This document shows positions 576 through 55,488 of a stretch of 64,000 bases of DNA, piece by piece. How positions within the stretch are numbered: position 1 is the stretch's first letter; every line of letters starts with the position of its first letter. The notes under the pieces are model-generated. The model was given only the letters and a program-made list of their open reading frames with translations, had not been told where the DNA came from and did not search any database. A program made the translations under genes and the position numbers. This DNA is from an uncultured Prevotellaceae bacterium. Lineage in GTDB: Bacteria > Bacteroidota > Bacteroidia > Bacteroidales > Muribaculaceae. The stretch spans positions 108,616-172,615 of the forward strand of contig ONKU01000005.1 of assembly GCA_900318535.1 (NCBI GenBank), read 5' to 3'.

Positions 576-603
576 TTAGTGATTAGAGATTAGTGATTAG
601 AGA
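576..603. repeat. Heptad array (4 units) after pta
   Basis: Four consecutive seven-base units alternating TTAGTGA and TTAGAGA begin one base after the pta stop codon. Each unit carries TAG on the plus strand and most carry TAA on the minus strand, so three units give stops in all frames. The same kind of array recurs at many gene ends in this window. Confidence 0.8.
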
Positions 604-3017: not shown

Positions 3018-3079
3018 TTTAGAGTATAGAGTTTAGGGTTTAGAGAGGTGCCGTGACTGAGTCACGGCACAGGGAACCT
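3018..3079. repeat. Composite element: heptad array + palindrome + AGGGAACCT
   Basis: Four seven-base units (TTTAGAG type) at 3018-3045 are followed by a 10-bp-arm palindrome with a 3-base TGA loop (GTGCCGTGAC / GTCACGGCAC, 3048-3070) and then AGGGAACCT. The same order (heptads, palindrome with TGA loop, ACAGGGAACCT) is found at 47855-47927, so this is a dispersed modular repeat. It also ends the pheS transcript region. Confidence 0.8.
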
Positions 3080-15341: not shown

Positions 15342-15362
15342 CTAAGGACTAAAAACTAAGAA
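15342..15362. repeat. Heptad array (3 units) after DUF1015
   Basis: Three units of CTAAGGA/CTAAAAA/CTAAGAA type begin 8 bases after the stop codon, the reverse-complement orientation of TTAGTNN. They run into the terminator stem. Confidence 0.65.
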
Positions 15363-17453: not shown

Positions 17454-18662
17454 ATGTTGAAAGGCAAGCACATTATCTTGGGTATCACGGGCGGAATCGC
17501 CGCCTACAAGTGTGCCACGCTCACACGGCTGCTTATCAAAGCCGGCGCCGAGGTACAGGTCATCATGACCCCTAACGCCAAGCAGTTCATTCAGCCCTTG
17601 ACGCTCTCGACGCTGAGCGGCAAGCCTGTCATCAGCGAGTTCTTCACGGCCAACACAGGCCAGTGGAACAGCCATGTGGACCTTGGCCTTTGGGCCGATG
17701 CCCTCATCATTGCCCCTGCCACAGCATCGACAATCGGGAAGATGGCCAACGGCGTTGCCGACAACATGCTGGTAACGACCTACCTGTCGGCCAAGGCGCC
17801 CGTTTTCGTTGCTCCTGCAATGGACCTGGACATGATGCGCCACCCGAGCACCGTGCGCAATCTGGAACTATTGCGCAACTACGGCAACCACATCATTGAG
17901 CCTGCCGAGGGTGAATTGGCAAGCCATCTCATCGGCAAGGGGCGCATGGAAGAGCCCGAGAACATTCTAAAAGCGCTTGACCGCTTCTTTGCCGCAAAAG
18001 AGGACCTGAAAGGCAAACGCGTACTCATTACCGCAGGCCCCACGGTCGAGAAAATCGACCCGGTGCGCTACATCAGCAACTTCTCATCGGGTAAGATGGG
18101 CTTTGCCCTCGCCGAGGAATGTGCCAGCCGTGGCGCTGAAGTGACCCTAGTAGCCGGCCCGGTTACCCTCAAGACTCCCGAGGGGAACATCGAGCGCATT
18201 GATGTGACAACGGCCGTCGAAATGCATGATGCCGTGATGAAAGCGCTGCCCGAAAGTGATGCCGTCATCCTGTGCGCTGCTGTAGCCGATTACCGTGTAG
18301 AGAATGTGGCCGACAGCAAAATCAAGCGAGAGAAAACACAGAATCCCGTCATACAATTGATCCCCAATCCCGACATCGCCCGTGCCGTTGGACAAGCCAA
18401 GCGTCCCGACCAGGTGACTGTGGGTTTTGCACTGGAAACCGATAATGAACAAGCTAACGCTCAAGGCAAACTTGAACGTAAGAATCTGAATTTCATTGTT
18501 ATGAACTCGTTGCGCGACAAGAATGCCGGTTTCCAGGTCGATACCAACAAGGTCACCATCATCACCGACCGCGGTGAGACGATTGAGGGTGAGTGCAAGT
18601 CCAAACGCGATGTAGCCCGCGACATAACCGATGTTTTATACAAGTATCTGACTGAGAAATGA
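17454..18662 (+). CDS. coaBC: Phosphopantothenoylcysteine decarboxylase / phosphopantothenate--cysteine ligase
   Basis: Bifunctional flavoprotein making 4'-phosphopantetheine for coenzyme A. The start at 17454 (MLKGKHIILGITGGIAAYK) gives 402 aa. Residues 1-190 are the FMN-binding CoaC half (GGIAAYK, NSHVDLGLWAD with the active-site His, IAPATASTIGKMANG); 190-402 are the CoaB ligase (GPTVEKIDPVRYISNFSSGK, DSKIKREK). At the CoaC positions where E. coli has PAMN and ACG, this protein has PAMD and ASH, so the usual active-site Asn and Cys are not obvious. The stop overlaps the next start by four bases (ATGA). coaE, the last CoA step, lies 5.7 kb downstream. Confidence 0.95.
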   Translation: MLKGKHIILGITGGIAAYKCATLTRLLIKAGAEVQVIMTPNAKQFIQPLTLSTLSGKPVISEFFTANTGQWNSHVDLGLWADALIIAPATASTIGKMANGVADNMLVTTYLSAKAPVFVAPAMDLDMMRHPSTVRNLELLRNYGNHIIEPAEGELASHLIGKGRMEEPENILKALDRFFAAKEDLKGKRVLITAGPTVEKIDPVRYISNFSSGKMGFALAEECASRGAEVTLVAGPVTLKTPEGNIERIDVTTAVEMHDAVMKALPESDAVILCAAVADYRVENVADSKIKREKTQNPVIQLIPNPDIARAVGQAKRPDQVTVGFALETDNEQANAQGKLERKNLNFIVMNSLRDKNAGFQVDTNKVTIITDRGETIEGECKSKRDVARDITDVLYKYLTEK

Positions 18663-29377: not shown

Positions 29378-29440
29378 GTTTAAAGTATAATGTTTATTGT
29401 TGCGCGCTGCGCTAGCAGTTTAGGGTTCAGTTTAAGAGAT
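29378..29440. repeat. Heptad arrays around a CTGC/GCAG core
   Basis: Three seven-base units (GTTTAAA, GTATAAT, GTTTATT; 29378-29398) are followed by a GC-rich stretch containing CTGC-GCTA-GCAG and then further degenerate TTTAGG/TTTAAG units. It is a weaker member of the heptad-plus-core elements seen elsewhere. Confidence 0.5.
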
Positions 29441-31513: not shown

Positions 31514-32014
31514 ATGAAGCAACCCGACCACATCACAAGCGCATTCACCGCCCTGAGGGAGCAGATGCTCTCGCTGGCCGAACGCATCACGGGCAACCGT
31601 GACGATGCTGCCGATGCCGTTCAGGATGCCTTTGTGAAGCTGTGGCTGCGGCGGGAACGCATCGAGTCTTCGAGCCATGCCAGCGGAGCGGGAATAACGA
31701 CTGTGCGCAATGCCAGCGTCGACCTGGCCAGGCGCAACAGCAGGCGGGGCCACATCCCCATTGAACAAGCTGATGATGCCCCAGTCGAGGTTACCGACAC
31801 CGATCGTGAACTGGCCTACCGCCAAGTGCGTGCCATCATCGACAAGGAGCTGTCCCCCAACCAACGCGCCATCATCAACATGAGAGAAGTGGAAGGGATG
31901 GAATTTGAGGATATCGCAATGCGATTGGGACTACAAGCCGCCACAGTGCGGGTGGAACTGAGCCGAGCCCGCAAGCGGGTGCGCGAGATTTACCAAGAAA
32001 GAAAGGAGAACTGA
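31514..32014 (+). CDS. ECF-type RNA polymerase sigma factor
   Basis: 166 aa with sigma region 2 (LAERITGNRDDAADAVQDAFVKLW, here cited in part: DAVQDAFVKLW) and region 4 helix-turn-helix (MEFEDIAMRLGLQAATVRVELSRARKRV, in part AATVRVELSRARK). No region 1 or 3, as expected for group 4. The ATG at 31514 (MKQPDHITSAF) is used; an upstream TTG is also in frame. It is 3 bp before a single-membrane-segment protein that looks like its anti-sigma factor. Targets are unknown; the flanking paralogous outer-membrane proteins are candidates. Confidence 0.93.
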   Translation: MKQPDHITSAFTALREQMLSLAERITGNRDDAADAVQDAFVKLWLRRERIESSSHASGAGITTVRNASVDLARRNSRRGHIPIEQADDAPVEVTDTDRELAYRQVRAIIDKELSPNQRAIINMREVEGMEFEDIAMRLGLQAATVRVELSRARKRVREIYQERKEN

Positions 32015-32017
32015 AAA

Positions 32018-32479
32018 ATGAAAAAATCACAATACATCAGCAGTCAGGCAGAACTTGAGGCGCTCATCGAGCGATACTTCGAGGGCATTACAAGCCTTGA
32101 GCAAGAAGACGCCATGAGGCAGTGCCTTGCACATTGCCCGTGGAGCAGCGAGGCCATCGACGACGCACGCATGGTCATGGGCTACTTTGCCGCCCACAGT
32201 AAACAGCATCGTCGCAGTGTGTCAAGCGGTATGCGCCAGGGCATCATCGGCATTGCAGCGTCGATTGCTGTAATATTGGCAGTTGGAGGCTATGTCCTGT
32301 GGCACCAGAGCCAACCCGGCGACATGTGCATTGCCTATGTTAACGGCACGGTTGTGAAAGACAACGATAAAGTAATGGCACTGGTCGCTAATGACATGAG
32401 CAAGATGGACGATGCCACCGATGCCATGACCAATCAGCTTTCCTCCCTGGGCGAAGCACTTGAACTCGATAACGAATAA
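32018..32479 (+). CDS. Probable membrane anti-sigma factor
   Basis: 153 aa: an N-terminal cytoplasmic helical part (1-80, with YFEGITSLEQEDAMRQCL resembling the helical N-terminus of anti-sigma factors), one membrane segment (about 84-100, IIGIAASIAVILAVGGYV) and a short C-terminal periplasmic part. Position 3 bp after an ECF sigma gene and topology support an anti-sigma role. There is no HxxxCxxC zinc motif and no FecR domain, so it is not a classical ZAS or FecR-type protein. Confidence 0.7.
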   Translation: MKKSQYISSQAELEALIERYFEGITSLEQEDAMRQCLAHCPWSSEAIDDARMVMGYFAAHSKQHRRSVSSGMRQGIIGIAASIAVILAVGGYVLWHQSQPGDMCIAYVNGTVVKDNDKVMALVANDMSKMDDATDAMTNQLSSLGEALELDNE

Positions 32480-36003: not shown

Positions 36004-36004
36004 A

Positions 36005-36112
36005 ATTAGTTCTTAGTTTTTTAGTTTTTAGTTCTTAGTTGTAAGAATGGTTTGTATCGCCTGAAAGAGGAAATATGACTTAAAACTTACAACTTAAAAC
36101 TTACAACTTATT
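36005..36112. repeat. Heptad-flanked element copy 1 (between bcd and etfB)
   Basis: TTAGTTN heptads (36006-36041) on one side and CTTAAAA/CTTACAA heptads (36079-36106) on the other flank a core reading GGTTTGTATCGCCTG then AAAGAGG. The second copy at 37261-37348 has the same core with one base change (TAAGAGG). The arms are roughly complementary, so the RNA could fold. The core and arms show this is one dispersed element, not two accidents. Confidence 0.85.
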
Positions 36113-37247: not shown

Positions 37248-37260
37248 TTCTTTTAAAGTT

Positions 37261-37348
37261 TTTAGTTTTAAGTTTTAAGTTGTTAGTACGGTTTGTATCG
37301 CCTGTAAGAGGTATGATTACTTAAAACTAACAACTTAAAACTTAAAAC
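37261..37348. repeat. Heptad-flanked element copy 2 (between hbd and bcd)
   Basis: TTTAGTT/TTAAGTT heptads (37261-37288), the core GGTTTGTATCGCCTG then TAAGAGG, and TTAAAAC/TAACAAC heptads (37321-37348). It matches the copy at 36005-36112 in order and orientation. The two copies bracket bcd. Confidence 0.85.
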
Positions 37349-37356
37349 TGAATTCA

Positions 37357-46963: not shown

Positions 46964-47026
46964 TTAGTTCTTAGTTGTTAGTCCTTAGTCCTTAGTTTCT
47001 AGTCCCTAGTCCTTAGTTTCTAGTTG
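46964..47026. repeat. Heptad array (9 units) between kce and kdd
   Basis: Nine consecutive seven-base units of the form YTAGTNN with no indel, running exactly into the kce stop codon (47020-47022), which is part of the last unit. Each unit contains TAG on the plus strand and, where it begins with T, TAA on the minus strand. Confidence 0.9.
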
Positions 47027-47854: not shown

Positions 47855-47927
47855 CTAGTTTCTAGTCCTTAGTTTTTTGTCCTTAGTTTTTTTGTTGGCC
47901 GTGGCTGAGCCACGGCACAGGGAACCT
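47855..47927. repeat. Composite element: heptads + palindrome + ACAGGGAACCT (between kal and kce)
   Basis: Five heptads (47855-47889), then an 8-bp-arm palindrome with a TGA loop (GCCGTGGC / GCCACGGC, 47898-47916), then ACAGGGAACCT, ending one base before the kal stop. Same order and orientation as the element at 3018-3079; the palindromes differ by one base pair (A-T versus G-C), which keeps the pairing. Confidence 0.85.
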
Positions 47928-48322: not shown

Positions 48323-48357
48323 TAGTCTTTAGTTTCTAGTCTTTAGTCTTTAGTTAC
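48323..48357. repeat. Heptad array (5 units) between atoD and kal
   Basis: Five seven-base units of TAGTYTT type with no indel; the atoD stop codon (48354-48356) falls in the last unit, as in the kce array. Confidence 0.85.
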
Positions 48358-54267: not shown

Positions 54268-55488
54268 TTAGCGACGTCGTCCGCCACCGCCTGACGAACC
54301 GCCATGGCTACCGCCACCACTGGAATGGCTGCTGCCGCTGCTGTACGAACCGCCACTGCGTGAACTGCCGCTGCTGCCGCTGCTGTACGAACCGCCGCTG
54401 CGTGAGCTGCTACCGCTGCTGTACGAGCCACCGCTGCGTGAGCTGCTGCCGCTGCTGTACGAGCCACCGCTGCTGGAACGGCCTCCACTGTACGAGCCGC
54501 GTGATGATGCGCCACCGCTGCGTGTAGTAATGCCAGAATTATTGCGGGATCCCATGTTGCCGCTGCGCGATGATGCCATTCCGCTACGGTTGCGATTTCC
54601 TCCCATACCGGCAGAGGCAGAACCGCTGCGACTGGTTCTTCGAGCCGAGACACTATTGCGGCCTCCTGTAGCATCAACGCGGCCACGTCCGTTGCGGTTG
54701 CTTGCGAGTCCGGCACGACGACCGACACTGCTGCCGCCTACGTTAGTATGGGGTCTGTTAGGACGATGAGTAGTCCAGTCATAGTGAGTGTTGGACCAGC
54801 CCCAATCATTATAGTGGGGTCCCCATCCCCAGTGGTTATGCCAGTGATGGCCCCACCAACCGTAGTATGGGCTATGCCAATAACCGAAATAGACGGGACT
54901 ATACCAACCGTAGCGCCAAGGGCTGTACCAGCCATAGTACCAGGGACTGTACCAGTCGGAGTACCAAGGCTCATACCACCCTGTGTACCAAGGGTAATAG
55001 GAACTTGACCATCCATAAGATGAATAAGCCCAATCGCTACCTACAATCAGGTTGATGGTTGGAGACTCGTCATAATAGAGTTCCACCAGGTCATCATCAT
55101 CGCTCAGGATAACGATGTCGGGATTGTAGAAACGCTCGATGCGGCGCGTGTTGGCAAACATGTCATCATCATACATGACGGAGTCACCATCGAAATAGAT
55201 GGTATCACCATTGATGTCAACCTCATATTTGGGCTCATACGCACCACGACGGTTGTACTCGTCAACATCACGCTCCTCGCGATAGTTATCCTTGACAACC
55301 AGCTTATATCTCTCGGGAACATCGCCATAGACGGCTACCGTCTTGGCTGGCTTTTCGACCTTAACCTTAGTCTTGGTCGTGGGTTGGGCCTTTGACGCAT
55401 CGTAATAGATGTCGTCATAGTCCTGGGCCTGTAGCGATCCGGCGGTCAAGGCCATCACGCCCAATAATCCTAAAATGCGGTACTTCAT
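54268..55488 (-). CDS. Secreted Trp/Tyr-rich and Gly/Ser-repeat protein
   Basis: 406 aa with a signal peptide (MKYRILGLLGVMALTAGSLQA). Residues about 20-150 are acidic and charged (DDIYYDASKA, VILSDDDDLVELYYDE); about 155-235 is a remarkable Trp/Tyr/Pro-rich run with recurring WYxPWY/GWYSPW units and then HHWHNHWGWGPHYNDWGW; about 250-406 is a basic Gly/Ser/Arg tail with SGGSYSSGSS-type repeats of roughly 13 residues. This layout is seen in uncharacterised Bacteroidota proteins; no enzyme motif is present. The repeated tail DNA (54288-54480) is coding repetition and not a CRISPR. It sits before the FadL-type gene. Confidence 0.8.
   Translation of the reverse strand: MKYRILGLLGVMALTAGSLQAQDYDDIYYDASKAQPTTKTKVKVEKPAKTVAVYGDVPERYKLVVKDNYREERDVDEYNRRGAYEPKYEVDINGDTIYFDGDSVMYDDDMFANTRRIERFYNPDIVILSDDDDLVELYYDESPTINLIVGSDWAYSSYGWSSSYYPWYTGWYEPWYSDWYSPWYYGWYSPWRYGWYSPVYFGYWHSPYYGWWGHHWHNHWGWGPHYNDWGWSNTHYDWTTHRPNRPHTNVGGSSVGRRAGLASNRNGRGRVDATGGRNSVSARRTSRSGSASAGMGGNRNRSGMASSRSGNMGSRNNSGITTRSGGASSRGSYSGGRSSSGGSYSSGSSSRSGGSYSSGSSSRSGGSYSSGSSGSSRSGGSYSSGSSHSSGGGSHGGSSGGGGRRR
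54295..54485. repeat. In-frame tandem repeats in the Gly/Ser tail
   Basis: Repeats of about 39-42 bases encode SSSRSGGSYSSGS-like units. Their length is a multiple of three, so copy-number change would lengthen or shorten the protein without a frameshift. Confidence 0.7.

Follow-up and report, generated by a model that had tools for sequence, protein, structure and literature searches.

Intergenic repeats with a seven-nucleotide unit are known from several phyla, where quadruplexes, slippage and start-site binding compete as explanations. In the accessible parts of Rehm et al. 2015 (PMC4692102), the heptads GGGAATC and GGGGA(C/T)T of Xanthomonas and Nostoc are mostly intergenic, prefer aligned ORFs, are rare between divergent ORFs, and stand with the G-rich strand in sense orientation just after stop codons and in antisense orientation just before start codons, with 70 and 75 inverted heptad pairs in the two Xanthomonas genomes. 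The available sections of a study on cyanobacterial STRR sequences (PMC2670836) describe 7-bp repeats, located between genes such as hupS and hupL, that have hairpin-forming potential, and suggest an effect on transcript stability or translation coupling. MacGregor 2015 (PMC4679880), as far as its available text goes, reports direct repeats of TAACTGA, an intergenic unit that contains stop codons and often lies directly before start codons, in Beggiatoaceae, cyanobacteria and five Bacteroidetes. A slippage hypothesis for heptads is already in print, as cited in the same excerpts of PMC4692102 and PMC4679880. Selective RNA processing and stabilization (SRPS) stem-loops of Clostridium, described in the accessible part of PMC4423207, are intercistronic and affect transcript abundance. 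Within the open-licence literature, PMC4679880 was the only paper found on heptad repeats in Bacteroidetes, and none was found on Bacteroidales intergenic hairpin repeats in operons.

We analyzed a 64,000-nucleotide stretch (the window) of a draft genome of 2.92 Mb in 43 contigs, in which a nine-unit heptad array separates kce from kdd within a lysine-fermentation run of minus-strand genes (an atoD-like CoA-transferase subunit A gene, kal, kce and kdd). Among the gene labels used here, kal, kce, kdd, ackA and pheS passed the NCBIfam curated cut-off, and pta, acd, hbd and etfB are names from best matches below it; all gap and placement counts rest on a simple codon-score ORF caller rather than on annotation. 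The 80 nearest kce loci came mostly from metagenome-assembled genomes labelled Bacteroidales, Prevotellaceae or Muribaculaceae, many of them of ruminant origin judging by record titles, and the loci compared belong to related species, so that counts over loci are non-independent.

A preliminary description of this DNA had listed eleven arrays of a TTAGTNN unit with a strict seven-base period nearly free of indels. The enrichment of period 7 withstood comparison with shuffled sequence, as nine window segments scored at least 9, against a mean of 0.5 and a maximum of 2 in 30 dinucleotide shuffles of the window; the other periods examined (4, 5, 6, 8, 9, 10, 11 and 13) gave 0-5 segments each, and period 14, a multiple of 7, gave eight. 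One of the nine segments, 32000-32025, differs from this array type, and a separate 36-bp tandem repeat of about four copies (54328-54473) lies within a predicted coding region. Lag-7 identity across the eleven listed arrays was 0.61-0.86. Two of them, the weak stretch at 29378-29398 and the one with only three units at 15342-15362, fell below the threshold, and 47855-47889 was below it at period 7 and was detected at period 14. The TTAGTNN unit is present, but the range of units is wider, including TTTAGRG, GGAGTTA, TTTTAAG, TCAGTTN and TTAGGYN among others, and a TTAGT/CTAGT-type core is absent from the arrays at 3018, 29378 and 36079. The near-absence of indels did not survive inspection: the array at 36006-36041 carries one (6% indels), and 8- and 9-nt periods were seen by eye in some relatives, namely after the kce stop in L072, L087, L054 and L065, where other relatives hold heptads.

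Consistent with their description as spacer features, the arrays were far from equally frequent inside genes. Intergenic to genic counts (period 7, score at least 11) were 28:1 in array-rich congeners, 15:0 in the own genome and 7:2 in congeners without TTAGTNN matches, and they were 5:0 in a phylum sample and 83:2 in the 80 kce loci. Three consecutive TTAGTNN units occurred in 30 of 41 genomes of the genus (0-240 overlapping matches per genome), and four TTAGNNN units in 104 of 296 phylum genomes, for which a pattern-reversed control is an unclean negative, since real arrays, too, can contain GATT cores. G015, a congener without TTAGTNN matches, carries TAGCNNN heptads with a more variable unit (L163:13096-13421 and 17900-18033). 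Being head-to-tail 7-nt units above chance, outside genes and mostly between aligned ORFs, the window arrays belong to the intergenic heptanucleotide repeats of the LSSR / STRR kind. The features are collected in Table 1. Two of the arrays adjoin copies of a palindrome, CCGTG(A/G)CTGAG(T/C)CACGGCACAGGGAACC (3051-3078 and 47899-47926), found twice in the window and not at all in 100 shuffles.

Table 1. Heptad arrays, predicted hairpins and apical motif of the window (window positions; R2 is a covariance model, see text)
Feature	Position	Strand	Remarks
TTAG-type array at the pta-like stop	576..603	+	single; 21 nt before ackA; fold z -0.72
TTTAGAG-type array downstream of pheS	3018..3045	+	single; an unrelated GC-rich hairpin on either side
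Three CTAA-type units after a stop codon	15342..15362	+	terminator-like hairpin and T run downstream
Weak period-7 stretch	29378..29398	+	lag-7 identity 0.71, no core; probably no true member
acd-etfB predicted hairpin	36004..36107	-	-19.3 kcal/mol, z -3.75, 0/200 shuffles as good; arms are listed arrays 36079-36106 (first in RNA) and 36006-36041 (second); R2 match 36023-36110, 105.6 bits, itself an R2 seed
Apical motif tip 2, GGTTTGTATCGCCTGAAAGAGG	36049..36070	+	second copy 37290-37311; third genomic copy, with 3 mismatches, outside these two sites
hbd-acd predicted hairpin	37248..37356	-	-31.4 kcal/mol, z -6.00, 0/200 shuffles as good; listed arrays 37321-37348 and 37261-37288 are the arms and form a perfect stem of 24 bp; R2 match 37264-37351, 98.8 bits, itself an R2 seed
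Nine-unit array, (ACTARNN)n on the coding strand	46964..47026	-	single-armed; begins in the kce stop codon, ends 34 nt before kdd
kal-kce array	47855..47889	-	single A/C-rich arm on the coding strand; separate palindrome adjoins
Array filling the junction of the atoD-like gene and kal	48323..48357	-	includes the atoD-like stop; predicted unfolded

Placement of the arrays followed gene orientation. Across five sets, in gaps of 15-600 nt, there were 122 arrays in 104.8 kb of co-directional gaps, four in 14.2 kb of convergent gaps and three in 32.5 kb of divergent gaps (129 of 138 intergenic arrays placed, nine lying outside such gaps). The arrays had been said mostly to touch a stop codon, and 53 of the 122 co-directional arrays did overlap the upstream stop or start no more than 3 nt from it, against 21.3 expected from random placement within their own gaps; 44 of 122 ended within 8 nt of a start codon (33.0 expected in the same way). 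On the coding strand, TTAG-type arrays numbered 26 on the stop side and three on the start side, and CTAA-type arrays were biased the other way, with 24 on the start side and 13 on the stop side (51 arrays were of other types and five mixed). The Bacteroidales arrays thus follow the strand rule of Rehm et al., in which one strand is sense after stops and antisense before starts. This order may simply reflect what start regions need, as array-free gaps are also richer in A on the start side (38.9% in the last 30 nt) than on the stop side (30.4%), and Flavobacterium start regions, according to the accessible part of PMC6847099, are tuned through low structure and an A at -3; the A-rich second arm described below could have the same origin.

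Comparison with the described systems shows which features are shared. With the Xanthomonas and Nostoc heptads, as far as the text of PMC4692102 was available, the arrays share the 7-nt unit, the intergenic position, the preference for aligned ORFs with rarity between divergent ones, and the strand rule; they differ in that convergent ORFs are the setting for 16% of the heptads in Xanthomonas, a location rare in the Bacteroidales set, and in the shared apical motifs and compensatory arm changes measured here. On inspection, the main units TTAGTNN, TCAGTTN and TAAGTTN contain no GGG tract, and only the minority unit TTTAGGG has one, so a quadruplex reading was rejected. STRR sequences, in the part of PMC2670836 available, share 7-bp, hairpin-capable intergenic repeats and differ in phylum; that part contains neither a strand-order nor a covariation analysis. 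The TAACTGA repeats are likewise intergenic heptads, but theirs is a fixed unit, and the main genome of that report (in its accessible text) has 169 sets of direct repeats and a single indirect one, whereas the Bacteroidales unit is degenerate and its arms are often paired. TAACTGA is not the unit of the window arrays (TTAGTNN, TTTAGRG, TTTTAAG); AACTGAH units, with a variable third position, serve as second arms in relatives. RRM/Musashi-like UAG sites were also considered and dropped, given that arrays of both strand types exist and that TTAG gives way to TCAG.

The preliminary description had proposed that the arrays are translational insulators, with stops in every frame of both strands releasing ribosomes that read through or shift frame. 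The geometry behind this proposal is partly there. The kce stop (47020-47022) and the atoD-like stop (48354-48356) both lie inside array units, TTAG units close every frame on both strands, and six of the eleven arrays close all three frames on both strands, the other five closing two or three. Of 47 stop-side array gaps, 36 had all three coding frames closed within their first 35 nt, compared to 41 of 330 array-free co-directional gaps (arrays starting no more than 10 nt from the stop, gaps of 60-300 nt), and the arrays sit between co-directional genes, where read-through would matter. The stops themselves are not conserved, however. The hbd-acd hairpins of L192 and L193, which belong to the same family, are built from TCAG units and keep their pairing although the arm has no stop on the coding strand; the three frames are first closed only 52-72 nt past the gene's stop. 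In 67 related hairpins, the first arm closed all three frames 20 times, two frames 16 times, one frame 19 times and no frame 12 times, which makes stops a property of some units and not of the element, and the letter preceding AGTT in first arms was C in 80 cases, A in 60, T in 33 and G in 13. A coding-strand stop was also absent from eight of 72 stop-side arrays (two of the eight orthologous), start-side arrays would be unable to protect an upstream gene, and the GGGAATC heptads of Xanthomonas, stop-free on both strands by our own reading of the unit, obey the same placement in the available text of PMC4692102. Together, the TCAG arms, the stop-free stop-side arrays and the arms closing no frame led us to reject selection for stops as the main cause, and the TCAG-type members largely refute it for the hairpin family; we now regard insulation as very unlikely. 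All-frame stops are real for TTAG-type arrays, yet, judged from these sequence comparisons, they are not what evolution keeps.

Pairing between arms provided a second property to examine. In 29 of 155 co-directional array gaps, the rest of the gap contained an arm complementary to the array (local score of 14 or more), compared to seven, four and two for same-sequence, reversed and complemented controls over the same gaps, of which 52 come from loci picked for TTAGT arrays and whose kce loci are related to one another. In the window, such pairs make up the predicted hbd-acd and acd-etfB hairpins. Heptad hairpins at these two junctions are, on inspection, followed by A-rich sequence and no U run and were therefore rejected as intrinsic terminators. 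The nine-unit array after kce did not fold significantly (z -1.46, with 18 of 200 shuffles folding as well or better), and co-directional array gaps in general were no more folded than array-free ones, with z below -3 in 31% (n=144) and 33% (n=100, drawn from 553 gaps), respectively. Array-free divergent and convergent gaps reached this level in 3% of 71 and 73% of 81. The similar folding with and without arrays indicates that hairpins are common in co-directional gaps regardless and that most arrays are single arms, the nine-unit array being one of many without a partner, and the idea that every array is a hairpin arm was rejected. A unit-order test on the two window hairpins was undiscriminating, the observed value being attained by 21 of 500 and 500 of 500 shuffles. 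Two congeneric genomes (at L030:2659-3036 and L039:4270-4650) hold a short gene-like stretch between two inverted heptad arrays, similar by eye, which we take to recall small four-helix-bundle proteins.

The two hairpin junctions were then compared across 24 congeneric loci. The hbd-acd junction has a predicted fold with z no higher than -3 in 17 of them, although the arms vary among TTTTAAG, TTAGTTG, TTAGGCN, TCAGTTN and TTAGTCC heptads or are replaced by unrelated, heptad-free stems; two of the seven loci that miss this level have gaps of only 24-30 nt. The acd-etfB junction reaches about z -3 or below in just eight of 24 loci, and nine of 24 have an element-free gap of 18-24 nt, indicating that the element is dispensable there. 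From these proportions the hbd-acd site looks maintained and the acd-etfB site optional. Several of the element-free acd-etfB gaps (L199, L201, L202, L210 and L211) contain a Shine-Dalgarno-like AGGAGGA motif; Bacteroidota rarely use Shine-Dalgarno sequences, and motifs of this kind are unusual in the phylum.

Compensatory change was clearest in alignment A2, comprising 12 sequences with the tip GCGGCATCCGC. Its 25 pairs had 93.3% of cells paired and nine pairs were double-changed, values that none of 500 shuffles matched for either the paired-cell share or the double-change count, and slid controls paired just 16.7-42.6% of cells. The count of further pair types was ordinary (reached by 99 of 500 shuffles), and most of the double changes, which template switching without selection could also produce, are contributed by two TTAGGC-type sequences from a single arm family. 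In alignment A1 (10 sequences, tip 2), three of 27 pairs were double-changed and the covariation term was about nil. Apical motifs were common to several loci and species. The sequence GGCATCCGC had 34 intergenic and 35 intragenic copies, although spacers make up just ~12-16% of the five sets measured; 14 of the 34 intergenic copies come from loci picked for TTAGT arrays, and about 16 of 34, by eye, lie at a two-arm junction. Arms that co-vary in one family and tips that are shared make a pairing-based function directly testable.

Covariance models R1 and R2 were used to follow the hairpins through genomes. At E 0.001, R1 had matches in 27, R2 in 25 and either in 28 of the 41 genus genomes, including the own genome, with up to 105 matches in one genome (both strands counted), and match counts tracked TTAGTNN abundance (rho 0.71 and 0.69, 41 genomes). 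R1 matched eight of 79 genomes and five of 30 genera in a family search (the own genome and one congener among them), and 13 of 118 genomes in a phylum search (the own genome included, with 1-3 matches in each of the others), both run with stricter filters that lose weak matches; these sparse matches suggest that the hairpin family as modelled is mainly one of this genus. Among 70 distinct non-seed copies drawn from the best-scoring matches, 67 were co-directional, one convergent, one divergent and one at a contig edge. The keto (G/T-rich) arm came first in all 67 co-directional copies, which started a median 5 nt past the stop and ended a median 14 nt before the start codon. The depletion from convergent gaps (binomial, 0.003) is not predicted by mere tolerance of spacers. 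In the 53 cases where it was known, the model's best strand was sense in 44 and antisense in nine, a mixture that a near-palindrome may well give. Rfam 15 at the gathering score returned no family besides tRNAs for nine sources, and with E up to 1 gave sub-threshold matches only, mostly to microRNA models, for five sources.

This dispersal bears on whether the repeats are small MITE- or REPIN-like mobile elements, carried by a transposase, inserting at stop codons and without host function. The preliminary description had allowed for the remnant of a target-site-specific element, and the element-like spread, shared tips, and gain and loss at one site fit that suggestion, which comes closer than its stop-cassette idea, but no target-site signature was found, including no target-site duplication by eye at the acd-etfB site. 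Hairpin counts also did not correlate with Y1_Tnp match counts in the 41 genomes (Spearman rho 0.17 and 0.12, p 0.28 and 0.45, for the Y1_Tnp family only, pooled and including any RAYT), which speaks against mobility driven by a Y1 transposase, and nearly all copies share one orientation and gap type. We consider mobile elements without host function highly improbable.

The main rival is neutral slippage, whereby heptads arise through slippage of the polymerase and persist only in operon spacers, being excluded elsewhere by promoters, terminators and genes, and pairing arises by template switching between arms. The turnover of arrays and their presence or absence between congeners are as this reading would have it, as are the single arms, the 8- and 9-nt periods seen by eye at the same site, the equal folding of gaps with and without arrays and the published slippage hypothesis. 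It does not readily account for apical motifs common to loci and species, for a single strand order in every co-directional copy with convergent gaps nearly empty, or for an hbd-acd hairpin kept with unrelated arms in most loci. We therefore judge it unlikely, though less so than insulation or mobility.

On balance, we think that the arrays are paired or single arms of a dispersed intercistronic element family that acts at the mRNA level in operon junctions. The junction genes are co-directional and presumably co-transcribed, and the element often begins at the upstream stop codon. In its complete mRNA form, the stop codon would lead into a G/U-rich heptad arm, for instance (HAGTTNT)n, followed by an apical motif that is commonly GCGGCAUCCGC or else AUUACCU...CAGGCGAUAC, a complementary A/C-rich heptad arm, an A-rich stretch and the start codon, giving one long predicted hairpin. 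Such a hairpin would most likely protect or delimit the message of the upstream gene at its 3' end and uncouple the two cistrons, with the A-rich arm keeping the next start accessible. Stabilization or processing of the upstream message, or control of coupling, would be its likely role. Arrays would lengthen and shorten through 7-nt slippage, with arm complementarity maintained by selection, template switching or both, and the stop codons would follow incidentally from the TTAG/TAAG core and from the position of the arrays at a stop codon. The nine-unit array after kce and other single arms may be half elements.

Position, strand order, copy number, arm turnover at a fixed site and, in one alignment, compensatory pairing are read from the sequences directly, and a role in stabilization, processing or coupling is likely by analogy with the Clostridium stem-loops (PMC4423207) and the STRR heptads (PMC2670836), both as described in the accessible parts of those papers. 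Like SRPS stem-loops, for which the accessible text mentions no heptad arms, the predicted heptad hairpins are intercistronic and lie at the 3' end of upstream genes in presumed operons; the position matches, the pairing is predicted and covarying, and co-transcription is presumed. An effect on abundance is reported for the SRPS stem-loops in the available text of PMC4423207 and is suggested here for the heptad hairpins by that likeness. A more tentative possibility, which we hold to be doubtful, is that the tips (GCGGCAUCCGC or AUUACCU...CAGGCGAUAC) are recognized by a protein or nuclease, so that strand-specific elements, with hairpin arms evolving as seven-nt repeats, set the relative output of neighboring genes in dozens of operons per genome.

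As far as the literature searched goes, the kind of repeat is known, and what is new is the sequence class, the strict strand order of the hairpins, the tips and the covariation. The Bacteroidales case obeys the same placement rule as other heptads, and does so without G tracts, independently of stop codons and with shared tips. If the more tentative reading with recognized tips is correct, the selected trait would be neither quadruplexes nor stop codons, and Xanthomonas, cyanobacteria and Bacteroidales would have arrived at their heptads convergently, in response to a common need where genes of an operon meet. The hairpin elements probably influence the keeping or translation of neighboring genes on one message and, should a pairing-based function hold, would represent, in a phylum with little use of Shine-Dalgarno sequences, a common, fast-evolving means of tuning genes within operons.
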